Part shown: piece after piece, positions 31,176 through 37,571 of the stretch
How positions within the stretch are numbered: position 1 is the first letter of the stretch
How the letters are laid out: every line of letters starts with the position of its first letter
Assembly (NCBI GenBank): GCA_002699145.1
Contig: PABK01000061.1
Span: forward strand, 196,130-260,129
Direction of reading: 5' to 3'
DNA length: 64,000 nt
From: Halioglobus sp.
Lineage (GTDB): Bacteria > Pseudomonadota > Gammaproteobacteria > Pseudomonadales > Halieaceae
Notes under the pieces: model-generated
Databases searched by the model: none
What the model was told of the DNA's origin: nothing
Seen by the model: only the letters and a program-made list of their open reading frames with translations
Translations under genes and position numbers: made by a program

Positions 31176-31464
31176 TGCAAAAACCTGCGATTGTACGGCG
31201 CGCAGCGGGCGCTGCCTAGCGCCAGCCCGGCAACCGCGGCCCACCTGCGTGCCGCGCCGGCATCGAGTGCCCCGGCCGGGAGGCGTCGAAGCCGGGGCTT
31301 TCTCCACGCGTCCCATAAAAATCTAATAAAAACAATTGGCTATGATTTTGGCTCCGGTGGTGGCCTGGTCGCCTCGCGCAGCCAGCGGGGCTCAAGGCGG
31401 GCTGAAATTTGCTACACTGCGTCGCTTGCACCCATTCCCCTACAGCACGGAGACCGAACCCGTC
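31176..31464. other. divergent intergenic region between AraC and VOC genes
   Basis: No gene is visible. It contains an AT-rich patch at about 31316-31355, unusual for this GC-rich window, with a TATGAT hexamer that could be the -10 of the VOC gene. No matching -35 was found. Frames crossing it lack ribosome sites. Confidence 0.35.
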
Positions 31465-31944
31465 ATGTCAGACAGACCCTTCAATATTCTTGGCATCCAG
31501 CAGATCGCCGTCGGCGGCCTGGACAAATCGCGCCTGCGCCACTTCTGGGTGGACACGCTGGGCCTGAGCTACGCCAGCACCTTCAAGAGTGAGAAAGAGA
31601 ATGTCGACGAGGACATCTGCGAGGCAGGTAGCGGCCCCCTCAAGGTCGAGGTCGACCTCATGCAACCGCTGGACCCGGAGAAAAAGCCCAAGGTGCACGA
31701 ACCGGCCCTGAATCACGTCGGGCTCTGGGTGGACAACCTGGCCGCTGCCGTGGACTGGCTGACCGCGCAGGGCGTGCGTTTCACCCCGGGCGGCATCCGT
31801 GCAGGCGCCGCGGGCCACGACGTCTGTTTCATCCATCCCAAGGGCAATGACGAGTTCCCGATCGGTTCGGAGGGCGTGCTGGTGGAACTGGTCCAGGCGC
31901 CGTCGGAAGTGATCGACGCGTTCGCTACCCTGGCCAGGGCCTGA
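31465..31944 (+). CDS. VOC protein, methylmalonyl-CoA-epimerase-like, 159 aa
   Basis: Two half-modules of the VOC fold. The second ([20 protein letters not shown], then [13 protein letters not shown] and GVLVELVQ) resembles methylmalonyl-CoA epimerase. The usual first-strand metal ligand His is replaced by Gln ([11 protein letters not shown]), while the later His and Glu ligands are present. ATG 31465 is chosen over an upstream ATG at 31336 because family members begin just before this first strand. The neighbouring B12 mutase operon, facing it 34 bases away, supports an acyl-CoA epimerase role. That is context plus resemblance, not proof; a glyoxalase or dioxygenase is the alternative. Confidence 0.7.
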
Positions 31945-31978: not shown

Positions 31979-32929
31979 TCACTCTTCCTGTACCGGGGAA
32001 AGTCGATGTACCAGCAACCGGGCCGCCTCGTAGGGATCAATCTGGCGCGCCTCAACTGCGGACAATACCTCGGCATCAGCCCGCTCCATGGCGATGCGCA
32101 GCATTTCCTCGCCCATCAGGGCCAATGCCTGCGCGCGCTCCCGCCGCCCCGACATGCGCGCGAACTCACCACTGTCGCGCAACTTGCTGCCATGTCGATC
32201 CGTCGCATCAATAATCCCGGCAATACCCTCATCCCTGGTTGCCACGGCCGGTAGCAGCGGCGGTGACCAGTCGAAGGCATCCGCGGGCCGGGCCTCCTCC
32301 CGCAGGTGCAGCATCAGCTCGAACTGTTGCCGGGTTGCCTCATAGCCTTCACGATCGGCCTTGTTGATCACAAACACATCGCCCACTTCCATGAGTCCGG
32401 CCTTGATGGCCTGCACTTCATCACCAAGGCCCGGCACGCCAATGATGATGGTGGTGTGGGCGAGCGCAACGATGTCGATCTCATCCTGCCCGACACCAAC
32501 GGTTTCGACAAAGATGACGTCGTAACCCATGGCATCCAGAATAAGGCAGGTATCGTGCGTGGAACGCGACAATCCCCCCGCGTGTCCGCGCGTGCCGACG
32601 GAACGAATGAAGACACCCGGGTCCAGTGTGTGGCGCGCCATGCGTACGCGGTCACCCAGAATTGCGCCGCCGCTGAAGGGGCTGGTGGGATCGATGGCCA
32701 CGACGCCAACGCGCCGTCCCCGGCGTCGCTGCTCGGTGATCATGGCATTGGCCAGGGTGGATTTACCGGCGCCGGGTGGGCCGGTAACGCCAATGATTTG
32801 CGCCCGGCCGGTGTGGGGAAAAACGCTGGACAGCACTTGCGCACCGCGTCGGTCGCGATCGTCCAGCCAACGGATAGCACGGGCGCCCGCCAGCACGTTG
32901 CCGGAGAGCAGTTCCCTGGCCACATCCAT
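31979..32929 (-). CDS. meaB: MeaB/ArgK-type GTPase chaperone of a B12 mutase, 316 aa
   Basis: G3E-family GTPase that loads and protects adenosylcobalamin in acyl-CoA mutases. Visible motifs: Walker A GVTGPPGAGKST, the switch region IDPTSPFSGGAILGDR, VETVGVGQDE and the guanine-specificity motif NKAD. Its ATG at 32929 overlaps the stop of the B12-subunit gene as TGATG, showing translational coupling. The frame is open 11 codons further upstream, but the overlap start fits the same pattern as the gene before it. Last gene of the mutase operon. Confidence 0.93.
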   Translation of the reverse strand: MDVARELLSGNVLAGARAIRWLDDRDRRGAQVLSSVFPHTGRAQIIGVTGPPGAGKSTLANAMITEQRRRGRRVGVVAIDPTSPFSGGAILGDRVRMARHTLDPGVFIRSVGTRGHAGGLSRSTHDTCLILDAMGYDVIFVETVGVGQDEIDIVALAHTTIIIGVPGLGDEVQAIKAGLMEVGDVFVINKADREGYEATRQQFELMLHLREEARPADAFDWSPPLLPAVATRDEGIAGIIDATDRHGSKLRDSGEFARMSGRRERAQALALMGEEMLRIAMERADAEVLSAVEARQIDPYEAARLLVHRLSPVQEE

Positions 32930-33354
32930 CAGTCGCGCTCTTCCCGCCGGGTGGCGCGCCACTGGTTCAGGTATGCCACGATGTCACGGGTATCCGCTCC
33001 CATGGTGAATATCCGGTCGACTCCGGCCTCTTCGAGAAGCGGCCTGTCCTCCTCGGGAATCACTCCTCCGGCGAGCAGCAGTTTGTCACCGGCCCCCGCT
33101 TCGCGCAGCAGTCGCGCAAGTGTGGGCAGGCTGCGGGTATGCCCTGCCGACAGGGTGGAGACGCCCACGACATCCACATCTTCCTGGATGGCTGCACTGG
33201 CAACCATTGCCGGGGTCTGCTTGAGACCAGTGAAAATAACCTCCATGCCCGCCTCGCGCAGCGCGTGGGCGATGACTGTCACGCCAACAGTGTGCGTATC
33301 CATGCCCAGCTTGGCCAGCAACACGCGCAGAGGCCGCTCCTCGATTGGCTGCAT
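32929..33354 (-). CDS. B12-binding small subunit of an acyl-CoA mutase, 141 aa
   Basis: Stand-alone cobalamin-binding domain. The signature is complete: DTHTVG (the D-x-H-x-x-G motif whose His replaces the lower base of cobalamin), GVSTLSAGH and LLAGGVIPEED. It pairs with the separately encoded catalytic subunit, as in isobutyryl-CoA and 2-hydroxyisobutyryl-CoA mutases, rather than being fused as in most methylmalonyl-CoA mutases. It overlaps its neighbours on both sides by TGATG. Confidence 0.93.
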   Translation of the reverse strand: MQPIEERPLRVLLAKLGMDTHTVGVTVIAHALREAGMEVIFTGLKQTPAMVASAAIQEDVDVVGVSTLSAGHTRSLPTLARLLREAGAGDKLLLAGGVIPEEDRPLLEEAGVDRIFTMGADTRDIVAYLNQWRATRREERD

Positions 33355-35093
33355 CAGATACCCCCGAGTTGGCTGTCGGCCCTGTGTTGACCAAAGACAT
33401 CGCGCATTGCGGAACAGATTTCCCCGTGGGTGGCGTAGGTTCGCACTGCATCCAGGCAGGGCGGCACCATGTTGTCGCCACTTCGCGCGGCCTCACGGAC
33501 TTTCTCCAGCGCGCGGTCTACCGCCTCCTGGTCGCGGCGTGCACGCAGGTCCCGTACTTTGCTGATCTGCTCCGCTTCCACGCTGTCGTCGAGCCGGAAG
33601 ATATCGATCTGGCGTTTCTCTTCGGCCAGTTTCAGGTGGTTCACACCCACCCACTTGCGGCGGCCCTCTTCCAGGTCGCGGTTGCGTTCGTACTGCTCGC
33701 GTCCCAGGGCGCGCTGGAAGTAGCCGCTCTCTATCGCCTTGAGGGCGCCGCCCATGTCGAAAATCTTTTCCATTTCGGCAAAGGCGGCGGTTTCCATCTG
33801 CTTGGTGAGAGTCTCCACATAGTAGGAGCCGGCCAGTGGGTCAATGGTTTCGGCAACGCCGGTTTCGTGTGCGACGATGTGTTGCATGGCCGCTCCAACC
33901 CTGATCGCCTCCTCAGCGGGCAGGGAGTGGGCCTCGTCGTGCAGCGGGGTAGTCATGCTTTCGCCCGCGCCACCCAGCGCGCAGGCGGTGGCCATAATAG
34001 CCAGTCGTCCGATGTTATTGAGCGGCTGTTGCAATGTAAGCGCAGTGGTAGTGGGCGATGTCATCATGCGAATTTTCATCGCCTCGGGCGTGGTGGCGCC
34101 GTAGCGTTCACGCATCAGTCTTGCCCAGCACTTGCGGAAGGCGCGTAGTTTGCAAACGCCTTCGAAAAAATCCATATCGACATTGATCACGAAGTGGAAG
34201 TATGGCGCCACCGTGTCGATATCCAGTCCGCGCTGTAAGGTGGCGTCAATGTAGGCGCAGGCAATGGACAGGCTGAACGCAATTTCCTGAACCGGGTTGG
34301 CTTTCGCCGGTTGCAATTGTGCGGCGATGATGGAGATGGGTGCCCAGTTCGGATGATGCCGAATGATGTACTCGATGCAATCGGTAGCCAACCGCAGGCC
34401 GTCTTGCGGGGGATAGATATAGCGGCCGACACAGGTGTACTCTATGAGAATACCGTTGACGATATGCAGTACGAGGTCCTTTGGGTCTACGCCCTTCTTT
34501 TCCAGCGCGGCGATGATCATGGCCAGGTTAACCGGCTGCGGCGCATTGCACACGCTCATCAGGTACTTGAGCTGGTCAAAGGGCAGGTCGAAGGCCTGCT
34601 CCAGGTCTTCCAGGCTGTCCAGTGCCATACCCGCCCGGCCCACCTCGCCCTCGACCAGCGGGTCATCGCTGTCGTAGCCATTGGTGGTCGCCAGATCGTA
34701 TTCCAGGATCAGGCCCGACAAGCCCTGATCCAGCATATAGCGCGCGCGTTTGGACCACTCCTCGCCCTTGCCGAAACCGGTTACCTGGGTCATGGTCCAG
34801 AAATCGCTGCGATGGCCATTGGGTATGGTGCCGCGGGTGTACGGATACTCTCCGGGGAAGCCCAGGTCTTTCATGTAGTCGAAATCAACGGCTTCCAGGT
34901 CCGCCGGCGTATACAGCGGATTGATTGACCATTTCAGCGCCTGGGTGACAAATTCTTCCCGTCGTTCGGGGTTGGCATTGACGTAGGGTCCACGGGTGTC
35001 GTTCTGCCAGCGCTCAGCTTCTGCAGCAATGGCGTCCTCGTTAACGCCGGAGCGCGTCGGGTTTGCAGTGCTGTGAGCAGACTCATCATTCAT
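33354..35093 (-). CDS. acyl-CoA mutase large subunit, divergent, 579 aa
   Basis: TIM-barrel catalytic subunit of the methylmalonyl-CoA mutase superfamily (EYPYTRGTIP, GYDSDDPLVEGEVG, TSPTTTALTLQQPLNNIGR, ALGGAGES). It would carry out a radical 1,2-rearrangement of an acyl-CoA with adenosylcobalamin. A gapless alignment recalled against Propionibacterium methylmalonyl-CoA mutase puts His94 at the Tyr89 position, Val222 at Arg207 and Gln259 at the otherwise conserved His244. So it lacks the carboxylate clamp and the active-site His. It is probably not a methylmalonyl-CoA enzyme despite its likely automatic annotation. Start: ATG 35093 with GGGTGA upstream; GTG 35102 is possible. First gene of a three-gene coupled operon, divergent from DUF1214. 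Confidence 0.88.
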   Translation of the reverse strand: MNDESAHSTANPTRSGVNEDAIAAEAERWQNDTRGPYVNANPERREEFVTQALKWSINPLYTPADLEAVDFDYMKDLGFPGEYPYTRGTIPNGHRSDFWTMTQVTGFGKGEEWSKRARYMLDQGLSGLILEYDLATTNGYDSDDPLVEGEVGRAGMALDSLEDLEQAFDLPFDQLKYLMSVCNAPQPVNLAMIIAALEKKGVDPKDLVLHIVNGILIEYTCVGRYIYPPQDGLRLATDCIEYIIRHHPNWAPISIIAAQLQPAKANPVQEIAFSLSIACAYIDATLQRGLDIDTVAPYFHFVINVDMDFFEGVCKLRAFRKCWARLMRERYGATTPEAMKIRMMTSPTTTALTLQQPLNNIGRLAIMATACALGGAGESMTTPLHDEAHSLPAEEAIRVGAAMQHIVAHETGVAETIDPLAGSYYVETLTKQMETAAFAEMEKIFDMGGALKAIESGYFQRALGREQYERNRDLEEGRRKWVGVNHLKLAEEKRQIDIFRLDDSVEAEQISKVRDLRARRDQEAVDRALEKVREAARSGDNMVPPCLDAVRTYATHGEICSAMRDVFGQHRADSQLGGI

Positions 35094-35250
35094 CGCTATC
35101 ACCCATGATTTTTATCCTGCGGCAAGGGTAAAGAATGCGGCAACGGACAGGATGGTTCAAGTGTTCATGCCGTACCACGCCGTACGGTCATGCGGCTAAG
35201 AGGCACTTTGGCTATCATGTACATTCAACCCGTCAGCGGAAGATTCGACA

Positions 35251-36393
35251 ATGTCTTACGATAGTAGCGCGAAGACGCCCGATCAGGGCATCCTGGACGG
35301 TAGCCTGTGGGCCAGGTTCTGCGAAGAACTGAAGGCCGCAGGCGACGTCGTCCTGCAGGCGCAGACACCACCAGACCTGATGAATCGTGCGGAAGGCTTT
35401 CGCTACCTCACCCGGCTGCTGCGGGCAGGGCTCGACAGCTATGTCGAGTCAAGCGATCCCCGTTTTCCACGTTTTTTTCAACTGGCCAACGAGACCATCA
35501 AGATCGGCAACGACAACCCGGATAACATCTACCACAACGCCAATGTGGATGGCAGCCTGGACTATAAACTCAAGGGGAATCGCGGCACCGTGGATTACCT
35601 GAGTTTTGGTACCAAGGCCGGCAGCTACGCAACCACAGGCTCCATGGAACCCACCGGGCAGTTGGAGGCGGCTGACCTGGCGCTGGATGACAACGGCGAT
35701 TTCGAGATCATACTTAGCAGCCGGCCTCACGCAGGCAACTGGTTGCCGATGCGCGAAGACAGTGAGAGCCTGATCGTGCGGCAGACTTTTGGGGATCGCA
35801 GCAGGGAACGCGCCGCCACCTATAGTATTGAGTGTGTGAGCCCCCGGGCGGACGACAGTATCGACCCGGCTGCCTTCGCCGGACAGTTAATGCGCAGTGC
35901 CGGGTTCGTCAAGAATACTGCAGACCTGTTTGTCCAGTGGATGGACCGTTACAGTGCCCATATCAACCGGCTGCCCGCCGATGACCAGGCGCGCTGCCAA
36001 CGCGCCGGCGGTGACTCGTCCATTTATTACCTGCAAAGTTACTGGAAACTGGCTCCGGATGAGGCATTGCTGATCCATGCGCGCGATATCCCAAAGTGCA
36101 GAACCTGGAACTTTCAGCTCTCCAACTACTGGATGGAGTCGCTGGACTACCGCTACCACCGCGTGTGTGTGAATAAACACACGGCAGCCTATAACAGTGA
36201 CGGTTCTGTCACCGTGGTCGTTGCACACAGCGATCCGGGAGATGATTGCCCCAACTGGCTGACGACCGCCGGGCACGACCAGGGCGGCATGCTGTGGCGT
36301 TGGGTAGAGGCCGATGCACACCCGCCAGTAGAGTGTCGCGTGGTAAAATTCGCCGAGCTGCTGGCGGAACTGAAAGTAGAGCACGCGCGGTGA
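35251..36393 (+). CDS. DUF1214-domain protein, 380 aa
   Basis: The C-terminal part (CRTWNFQLSNYWMESLDY, then HSDPGDDCPNWLTTAGHDQGGMLWRW) matches the DUF1214 family, beta-rich proteins of unknown biochemistry often found near steroid and lipid catabolism genes. No signal peptide is seen, so it is probably cytosolic. GGAAG precedes the ATG. Its stop overlaps the start of the sulfotransferase gene (GTGA), so the two are translated together. It is divergent from the mutase operon with 157 bases between them. Confidence 0.8.
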   Translation: MSYDSSAKTPDQGILDGSLWARFCEELKAAGDVVLQAQTPPDLMNRAEGFRYLTRLLRAGLDSYVESSDPRFPRFFQLANETIKIGNDNPDNIYHNANVDGSLDYKLKGNRGTVDYLSFGTKAGSYATTGSMEPTGQLEAADLALDDNGDFEIILSSRPHAGNWLPMREDSESLIVRQTFGDRSRERAATYSIECVSPRADDSIDPAAFAGQLMRSAGFVKNTADLFVQWMDRYSAHINRLPADDQARCQRAGGDSSIYYLQSYWKLAPDEALLIHARDIPKCRTWNFQLSNYWMESLDYRYHRVCVNKHTAAYNSDGSVTVVVAHSDPGDDCPNWLTTAGHDQGGMLWRWVEADAHPPVECRVVKFAELLAELKVEHAR

Positions 36394-37571
36394 GTGACAG
36401 TTCTTCGGCCATCGGCGAGGTGACACTCGACAGCGAGGCCATGCTCGCCCAGGCCCGCGCACAGACTGGTCTTGGTAATTTTGGTTGTGAATCATTTCTC
36501 CCGGCGTTTGAATGTCTGGTCGCTTCGCTCAACGCCCAGGCGGACCTCAATCCGCTGGGCCGGCTCCTGCAGTATCAACGGATACTGAACAGCCTTCAAA
36601 ACCGTCTGCGCATGGAAGCCTGGATCGAACAGTACCCGGAGATACTGCAGGAGCAACTGGCTCCTCCTGTTTGCATCGTCGGTCTAACCCGCACCGGCAC
36701 AACAATGCTGCATCGTATTCTCGCTGCCGACAAGCGCTTCCACGCCCCGCTGTGGTATGAAGTACGCAACCCGGCGCCTTACATGAACTGGCAGCCCGAT
36801 GAGCCTGACCAGCGTATCGTGGAGGCGCGCGCAGAAGTGGCCGCGCTGCTGGACGCCAATCCCGAGATCGCGTCGATTCACCCGATGGACCCGACAGGGG
36901 CGGACGAGGAAATCCTGCTGCTGGAGCACAGTTTCTACAGCTACGTGCCCAATTCCTTTTCCCACGTGCCGGACTATGGCCAGTTTGTAGCTGAGGCCGA
37001 CAACACCCCCGCCTACGAGTATCTGCGGCGGCAATTACAGTTTTTGCAGTGGCAGAAGAGGCGCCGAGGAGATAGCGCCGAGCGCTGGTTACTGAAGGCG
37101 CCGCACCATCTACATTTTATGTCCACGCTGTTGCGGGTTTTTCCTGACATCCAGATAGTGGCGACTCACCGGGATCCGGTGGTGAGCATTCCCTCCACTG
37201 CGAGCCTGTACTACAACCTGTGGTTAACCGGGAACCCGCACGCCGACAAACATGTGGTGGGGCAGGAAGTGCTCGATGTGTTCTCCCGGGGCACCCGGCA
37301 CACCATGGATGTTCGCGCCACGGCGGATACACAGTTCTGTGATGTGCACTTCGAGGATACGGTGGCAAGGCCGCGGCAGGTCATCGAGAAAATCTACGCG
37401 TTTATCGCTATGGATCTCACGCCGCAGGCGCTGGAGGCGATGGACAGGCACCGCGATGAGAACCGGCGCAGTGACCGCCCGGCGCATGCCTACACACTGT
37501 CTGAGTACAATTACACCGAAAAGGGTATTCGCAGCAGATTTGCGGACTATTGTGCCCGGTTTATCGACTAG
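36390..37571 (+). CDS. sulfotransferase-family protein, 393 aa
   Basis: PAPS-dependent sulfotransferase fold. The 5'-phosphosulfate loop is VGLTRTGTTMLHRIL and the 3'-phosphate-binding segment is ATHRDPVVSIPST. A general Lys/His context appears in LLKAPHHLHF. The frame is open from 36246, but GTG 36390 overlaps the preceding stop as GTGA and is the natural start. Proteins of this type in marine bacteria sulfate small alcohols, lipids or sterols; the acceptor is not predictable. Coupled to DUF1214. Confidence 0.85.
   Translation: MSDSSSAIGEVTLDSEAMLAQARAQTGLGNFGCESFLPAFECLVASLNAQADLNPLGRLLQYQRILNSLQNRLRMEAWIEQYPEILQEQLAPPVCIVGLTRTGTTMLHRILAADKRFHAPLWYEVRNPAPYMNWQPDEPDQRIVEARAEVAALLDANPEIASIHPMDPTGADEEILLLEHSFYSYVPNSFSHVPDYGQFVAEADNTPAYEYLRRQLQFLQWQKRRRGDSAERWLLKAPHHLHFMSTLLRVFPDIQIVATHRDPVVSIPSTASLYYNLWLTGNPHADKHVVGQEVLDVFSRGTRHTMDVRATADTQFCDVHFEDTVARPRQVIEKIYAFIAMDLTPQALEAMDRHRDENRRSDRPAHAYTLSEYNYTEKGIRSRFADYCARFID

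Follow-up and report, generated by a model that had tools for sequence, protein, structure and literature searches.

A clade of probable two-subunit B12-dependent mutases with replaced substrate-site residues, from Halioglobus sp. and other Proteobacteria

Introduction

What does an adenosylcobalamin (AdoCbl)-dependent mutase act on when the residues that line the substrate site of its relatives have been exchanged? The question is raised by a three-gene operon of Halioglobus sp. that lies in a 64,000-nucleotide stretch of DNA (the window, on PABK01000061.1 of assembly GCA_002699145.1, designated contig C4 of the 5.2 Mb genome) and encodes a large substrate subunit, a small B12-binding subunit, and a MeaB-type GTPase chaperone. 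According to the available text of a 2010 review, the enzymes of this family known at that time have very similar substrate-binding sites, since all of them bind coenzyme A (CoA) (PMC2847961). We found that the large subunit belongs to a clade of 26 proteins in which this site is altered without exception. On the basis of the alignments and a low-confidence structure model, we propose with moderate confidence that the clade enzyme is a working AdoCbl carbon-skeleton mutase of the two-subunit type, the substrate of which would be bulky, hydrophobic, and probably hydroxylated, and bound unlike the known acyl-CoAs.

Results

Active-site residues of the large subunit

The large subunit matches PF01642 with 518 bits over residues 59–571, covering the whole domain in the profile search, and its best solved relative is 2-hydroxyisobutyryl-CoA mutase (HCM; 4r3u_A, 386.7 bits), with human methylmalonyl-CoA mutase (MCM) at ~302 bits. 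The fold of the structure model was also recognized as that of the mutase family, with 4r3u in first place (E = 3.7e-30), and the assignment to the MCM superfamily made in a preliminary description of this locus is thereby upheld. The open reading frame (ORF), with its stop at 33354, may start at the ATG taken as its end in that description or at a GTG (Table 1); residue numbers of the window protein follow the GTG start.

The preliminary description had read His, Val, and Gln at the positions of Tyr89, Arg207, and His244 of MCM. The last two replacements were recovered in both the HMMER and the MAFFT alignments, in which Tyr243-His244 reads Ala-Gln in the window protein. The first arose from a register error. 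The chains 5req (Y89F mutant) and 1req differ at WTIRQ(Y/F)AGF, which fixes the position of Tyr89, and the window protein reads WTMTQV there, so that site 89 is Val; the His in question lies ten residues before this site, in the column of the PTMY Tyr. Misalignment as the source of the residue changes was considered and rejected, as HMMER and MAFFT give the same result at the key motifs. The residues of the window protein, with the MCM site in brackets, are Val107 (Tyr89), Val215 (Gln197), Val225 (Arg207), Ala261-Gln262 (Tyr243-His244), Tyr301 (Arg283), and His303 (Ser285), together with Glu134 in the column of an acidic HCM residue that we take to be Asp117. The active-site residues of 1req include Tyr89, His244, Lys604, Asp608, and His610, as given in the available part of PMC3205055, and equivalents of the last three are present in the small subunit (Table 1).

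Replacement across the clade

The clade comprises the window protein and 25 orthologues from Alpha- and Gammaproteobacteria and was compared with 66 other homologues. Five repeat loci (L028, L029, L030, L031, and L035) among the 31 clade rows of the alignment were removed before the tree was built; L002 and L027, which are copies of the window's own locus, and the partial second hits L059_2 and L061_2 were excluded from the alignments and counts, and the volume ranges per sequence do not include the partial row L025.

The canonical MCM trio Tyr89/Arg207/His244 reads Val/Val/Gln in 26/26 clade members. Gln197, Asp199, Lys202, and His244, which are present in 66/66 of the other homologues, are Val, Gly, Ile, and Gln in every clade member, and Ser114, Ser164, Arg207, Tyr243, Arg283, and Ser285 are likewise replaced throughout. 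In the 66 others, the conserved residue is found 65 times for Arg87, Ser164, and Thr195, 64 times for Ser285, 63 times for Ser114, and 62 times for Arg283. A single identical new residue occupies each of sites 89, 114, 116, 164, 197, 199, 202, 207, 241, 243, 244, 283, 285, 287, and 330 in all 26 members, and site 195 carries the same new residue in 25 of them. Sites 79, 82, and 87, presumably near the mouth of the barrel, where we take the CoA phosphates to bind in MCM, vary within the clade (site 82 is Arg or Lys in 4/26), and Glu370 is kept.

Among 103 sites that are at least 93% conserved in 61 other homologues, the clade consensus retains 72 and alters 31, and the replacements therefore do not amount to general decay. 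Ten of 11 substrate contacts of Propionibacterium shermanii MCM within the aligned reference are changed, compared with 58 of 163 other sites at least 80% conserved (Fisher p = 4e-4); two further contacts (75 and 78) precede the aligned part.

Tunnel and pocket

The changed residues recur at every second position along the predicted barrel strands (130–134, 180–184, 211–215, 254–259, 302–306, and 345–348 in the model), a spacing that is the pattern of inward-facing barrel residues. Side-chain volumes were summed over 12 sites that we assigned to the tunnel and 12 that we assigned to the pocket near the cofactor. Compared with 40 MCM-type sequences, the clade differs by +474 Å3 in the tunnel and −329 Å3 in the pocket. 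The corresponding tunnel and pocket sums are +20 and −41 Å3 for the HCM group, +24 and −212 Å3 for the Y243A group, +52 and −213 Å3 for L048/L050, +173 and −94 Å3 for L003, another mutase of the window genome that we presume to be like ethylmalonyl-CoA mutase (ECM), and +531 and −142 Å3 for L040, a homologue outside the clade. Sequence by sequence, the tunnel sums of the clade (1635–1752) lie above those of 65 of the 66 others (highest 1437) and below that of L040 (1795), and its pocket sums (1444–1448) lie beneath those of all 66 (1547–1774).

Partner subunits

The preliminary description had also pointed to a complete operon with a separate B12 subunit and MeaB as a sign of function, and this part holds, as both partners retain their motifs. 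The small subunit scores 128 bits against the acyl-CoA mutase C-terminal domain in the profile search. Its start overlaps with the large-subunit stop in the sequence TGATG, and the listed ORFs of the small subunit and meaB share 34 bases. The motif K-x3-DxHxxG is present in 24/24 linked small subunits, that of the window included. In L022 and L023 the small subunit is not beside the large one; both genomes encode one with 75% identity at another place. L023 comes from a record labelled as a Klebsiella pneumoniae metagenome-assembled genome (MAG), but its mutase clusters closely with the one in L022, from an uncultured gammaproteobacterium, and the label may be wrong.

Distribution, phylogeny, and selection

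The orthologues were collected by scanning genome contigs, which gave 23 loci, and from plasmids, among which 12 records match at 80–90% identity and the other 414 fall below 60%; two of the 12 were retrieved for analysis. Identity to the window protein is 73–90%, computed for 22 orthologues. In the window's family, the gene occurs at ≥85% identity in five of 140 genomes, the window's own included, and the sixth match has 37%. The class sample (369 genomes) holds it in two, the window's own and one at 73%, and the phylum sample (398 genomes) in the window's own only, with at most three candidates scored per genome in both scans and in the class search with L040. From the hits of the 92 genome searches, the best 30 per search became loci. 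Given the few carriers in the family, class, and phylum samples, the gene is uncommon and patchily distributed among Alpha- and Gammaproteobacteria.

In a FastTree phylogeny of 92 sequences and 559 columns, the clade is monophyletic with a support of 1.0 and a stem of 0.95 substitutions per site, and the nine-member HCM group is monophyletic and separate from it. The earlier suggestion that the enzyme stands outside the known subtypes is therefore retained in part: the clade falls in no subtype sampled in the tree and lacks the canonical residues, but the His-for-Tyr89 pair on which the suggestion drew was wrong. L040 was considered as a sister clade (support 0.946) and was not adopted, since both are long branches and the best relatives of L040 reach 47% in the 369 class genomes and 45% in plasmids, so that long-branch attraction is possible. 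L040 (L097, 8702–10351, minus strand, genome G259) is a mutase large subunit altered at tunnel and mouth sites, with Thr82, Tyr87, Ile114, Leu195, Leu283, and Arg285; it retains Tyr89, Gln197, Arg207, Tyr243, and His244 and has its own B12 subunit.

The clade is under purifying selection, with a ratio of nonsynonymous to synonymous substitution rates (dN/dS) against the window gene of 0.05–0.15 for seven of eight orthologues; the eighth has a saturated dS. A second large-subunit homologue (E ≤ 1e-60) is present in 12 of the 15 host genomes examined. The window genome has two, L001 and L003, both on contig C49, and L001 carries all canonical MCM residues and is encoded apart from the operon. 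At the same threshold, no second homologue was found in the genomes of L016, L017, and L020 (G895, G896, and G898), some of which are draft MAGs, and the clade enzyme may be the sole mutase of the family there.

Proposed reaction and alternative explanations

To judge from their motifs, the small subunit would bring the cofactor and MeaB would load and guard it. As elsewhere in the family, homolysis of the Co–C bond would generate a 5'-deoxyadenosyl radical, which would abstract a hydrogen from the substrate and initiate a 1,2 shift. The path that pantetheine takes through the barrel may be narrowed by Ile114, Leu164, His195, Ile241, Tyr283, and His285 (MCM numbering), and the pocket on the cofactor side may be larger and less polar owing to Val89, Val207, Ala243, Val287, and Ser330, so that the polar side chains left for binding a hydroxyl or carbonyl group would mainly be those of Glu116 and Gln244. 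The substrate is probably a product of the oxygenases whose genes lie close to many orthologues, in a catabolism of the steroid or terpenoid type. It is possible, as a tentative extension drawn from the alignments and the model, that the barrel is filled along the pantetheine path and that a free, bulky compound without CoA sits beside the cofactor. If so, a ketone whose alpha carbon is quaternary could undergo a 1,2-acyl shift, for which the Dowd–Beckwith ring expansion is a chemical precedent, and bacteria could thereby open quaternary methyl centres in steroids or terpenoids with no oxygen at that step. Because a clade under selection over two bacterial classes replaces the shared CoA site without exception, a new reaction is implied; the enzyme would offer a new scaffold for rearranging carbon skeletons by radical chemistry, and might supply a step that is missing from the aerobic degradation of bulky natural products.

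The preliminary description had suggested an unrecognised acyl-CoA as a possible substrate, which is now doubtful: the changes are not limited to the substrate-discriminating residues but extend to the CoA side, so a CoA thioester is not a safe assumption, insofar as the sequences and the low-confidence model allow the CoA site to be judged. A CoA thioester that is bound differently nevertheless keeps a serious, if minority, share of our expectation, about equal to that of a substrate without CoA, and other readings take the rest. The enzyme could then still be an acyl-CoA mutase, a possibility that we rank behind a substrate bound in a new manner, in which a bulky acyl-CoA (for example steroid- or isoprenoid-derived, 2-hydroxy- or 2-methyl-branched) follows a shifted CoA path and Glu116 acts as Asp117 does in HCM. 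HCM is indeed the nearest solved relative in both sequence and fold, an aliphatic residue at site 89 and an acidic one at site 116 occur together only in the HCM group and the clade within our sequence set, and two CYP125-like P450s are encoded 14–22 kb away in the window. Such a substrate fits poorly with the loss of Arg87, Ser114, Thr195 (in 25/26), Gln197, Arg283, and Ser285, and with the variation of sites 79, 82, and 87 while the inner sites are invariant, unlike a site that holds the CoA phosphates. Moreover, there is no CoA ligase gene adjoining the window operon, unlike HCM operons, which contain the hcl ligase gene, usually plus a GntR regulator, in the available part of PMC7176365.

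Several observations weigh against a substrate that is bound unlike the acyl-CoAs. Thr85 and Arg326 remain in place, and Arg98 (site 80) does not vary among the orthologues compared, so some CoA binding could survive. L040 fills its tunnel with large residues and yet keeps His244 and Arg207, and tunnel filling thus need not mean CoA loss; L040 is also encoded near ligase-like and thiolase-like ORFs (named by eye). The pocket is enlarged, to a smaller extent, in the Y243A group and L048/L050 as well. The structure prediction, built on 23 sequences, is weak (mean pLDDT 62.6, pTM 0.68, and below 50 in parts of the site), and the narrowed tunnel is consequently read from the sequences. L005, L033, and L034 have genes for acyl-CoA dehydrogenase and phosphotransferase next to the mutase, as an acyl-CoA substrate would suggest. 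Finally, meaB is linked in 23 of the 26 clade loci, and no linked meaB was found in L013, L022, and L023 within the DNA examined.

It is very improbable that the protein resembles the MCM beta chain in being a non-catalytic pseudo-enzyme retained for structure or regulation. The canonical acyl-binding residues are all gone, and catalytic residues are likewise lost in the beta chains of heterodimeric MCMs, but the replacements in the clade are invariant rather than scattered, the enzyme has its own B12 subunit with an intact motif, and three of the 15 host genomes, drafts among them, offer no other large subunit to pair with at E ≤ 1e-60. In addition, the window protein scores 103 bits against the beta chain versus 387 against HCM, and two partial MutA-like fragments, which cover eight of 24 sites, share only Arg326 and Glu370 with it. 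We regard it as very unlikely that the protein is an ordinary member of a known subtype with drifted residues, such as HCM/RCM, pivalyl-CoA mutase, isobutyryl-CoA mutase, or ECM. The tree has no named RcmA and pivalyl-CoA mutase anchors and so does not include all characterised subtypes; even so, the clade stands on its long, fully supported stem outside HCM and the other sampled groups, and the four residues found in all 66 other homologues are missing from it.

Comparison with known mutases

Compared with HcmAB of Aquincola tertiaricarbonis (4r3u), the window system has the same two-subunit layout and a separate MeaB-type chaperone, its best sequence and fold match, and the aliphatic and acidic residues at sites 89 and 116. 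It differs in Glu for Asp117, Val for Gln208, Ala-Gln for Tyr-His, and the loss of CoA-side residues, as well as in its separate clade in the tree and the absence of an adjoining ligase gene. The HCM set Ile90, Asp117, Gln208, and His at site 244 reads Val, Glu, Val, and Gln in the window protein, the columns being read from 4r3u. In the case of MCM (P. shermanii 1req and human MMUT), the fold, the B12 motif K-x3-DxHxxG, and Glu370 are shared, whereas the clade replaces Tyr89, Arg207, His244, Gln197, the arginines 87 and 283, and the tunnel serines. IcmF (isobutyryl-CoA or pivalyl-CoA mutase; 4xc6 and 5cjw) shares family and cofactor (match 154 bits) but is a single chain with B12, substrate, and internal GTPase domains, which correspond to three genes in the window. 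L003 is of the same family and genome, but retains Tyr89, Arg207, Tyr243, His244, and Gln197. The clade has neither the MCM nor the HCM residue set and is not IcmF.

The profile library labels the large subunit as MCM or its family, as do the 12 plasmid records. If the clade enzyme acts on another substrate, this annotation would make genome-based predictions of propionate and B12 metabolism wrong wherever it is the only copy. Among the publication matches listed (titles and beginnings of abstracts, with subscription journals mostly outside the coverage), none concerned such a clade.

Gene neighbourhood

Table 1. Features of the mutase locus and related genes in the window
Feature	Coordinates	Strand	Remarks
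AdoCbl mutase large (substrate) subunit	33354..35102	-	582 aa (GTG start, 35102) or 579 aa (ATG start, 35093)
Small B12-binding subunit	32929..33354	-	141 aa; motif AKLGMDTHTVG; equivalents of Lys604, Asp608, and His610 present
MeaB-type GTPase chaperone	31979..32962	-	327 aa; Walker A GPPGAGKS; MeaB profile 334 bits
VOC/methylmalonyl-CoA-epimerase-like protein, convergent neighbour	31336..31944	+	44 bits, family cut-off 115
Divergent intergenic stretch, mutase operon to DUF1214 gene	35103..35250	.	Likely shared promoter region
DUF1214 protein, divergent neighbour	35251..36393	+	Homologue (E ≤ 1e-12) in 7/25 orthologous loci
Sulfotransferase_3 family protein	36246..37571	+	Homologue in 6/25 loci
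CYP125-like P450	17699..18937	-	Relative of steroid C26-monooxygenases
CYP125-like P450	57259..58656	-	Relative of steroid C26-monooxygenases

The genes adjoining the window operon encode MeaB, the VOC protein, an AraC-type regulator, the DUF1214 protein, and the sulfotransferase, the ORF of which, as listed, overlaps the DUF1214 gene and probably has its real start further in. Homologues were sought at E ≤ 1e-12 in the 25 orthologous loci, which vary in length (at most 21.8 kb in most cases and ~41.7 kb in two); most neighbour genes were named by eye, outside those tested by profile or structure matches. Besides the two families counted in Table 1, homologues were found for EthD in 17 loci, the AraC-type regulator in 14, a Rieske oxygenase in five, and a ketosteroid-dehydrogenase-like flavoprotein in three. 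EthD was rejected as an essential partner, there being no match at E ≤ 1e-8 in the window genome, the L004 genome, or G127, the mutase copy of which scores the same as L009. The VOC gene as a methylmalonyl-CoA epimerase-type partner, hinting at a carboxylated substrate, was also rejected: the VOC protein of the window has no homologue in the 25 loci at E ≤ 1e-12 and is therefore probably outside the system. A different VOC-type protein is encoded in L020.

The Rieske protein, tested in L010, matches the KshA C-terminal domain with 196 bits, and among solved structures it comes closest to 3-ketosteroid 9alpha-hydroxylases (177 bits, with the best other at 78), while the flavoprotein of L020 matches 3-oxosteroid 1-dehydrogenase with 465 bits. 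In the plasmids of Sphingobium TomTYG65 (tomato) and S. herbicidovorans, the mutase is surrounded by a P450, a ferredoxin or, in the position of the ferredoxin, a small hypothetical protein, acyl-CoA dehydrogenase and phosphotransferase, dehydrogenases, of which one in TomTYG65 is named 3-alpha-hydroxysteroid dehydrogenase, and a TonB receptor. A ketosteroid-dehydrogenase homologue lies 5–23 kb from the mutase in five of 17 cases (L020, L016, L017, L033, and L034), which include two related pairs, and this proximity is suggestive of a steroid link.

Other findings temper that link. Co-occurrence is no evidence by itself: ketosteroid-dehydrogenase homologues are present in 17/17 mutase genomes or records tested, but many family genomes have them regardless of the mutase (92 of 140, and 64 of the 78 good ones). 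The two ketosteroid dehydrogenases found in the window genome are both on other contigs. The P450 beside the S. herbicidovorans mutase is closest to P450cam (camphor 5-monooxygenase; 224 bits, with CYP125 at 171), which points to terpenoids rather than steroids. The two CYP125-like P450s of the window are too far away to be counted in the operon.

In the available text of a study naming TomTYG65, Sphingobium sp. RC1 degrades tomatine and tomatidine (PMC10653915), and strain Chol11, which carries L026, is described as a degrader of bile salts in the available parts of PMC8399759 and PMC8540908; the word "mutase" is absent from the main texts of all three as available. Elsewhere in the window, the region at 44–56 kb encodes two luciferase-like monooxygenases, a thiamine pyrophosphate enzyme, an acetoacetate-decarboxylase-like protein, and a TonB receptor, and a single ORF of 5605 aa begins at position 143 on the plus strand.

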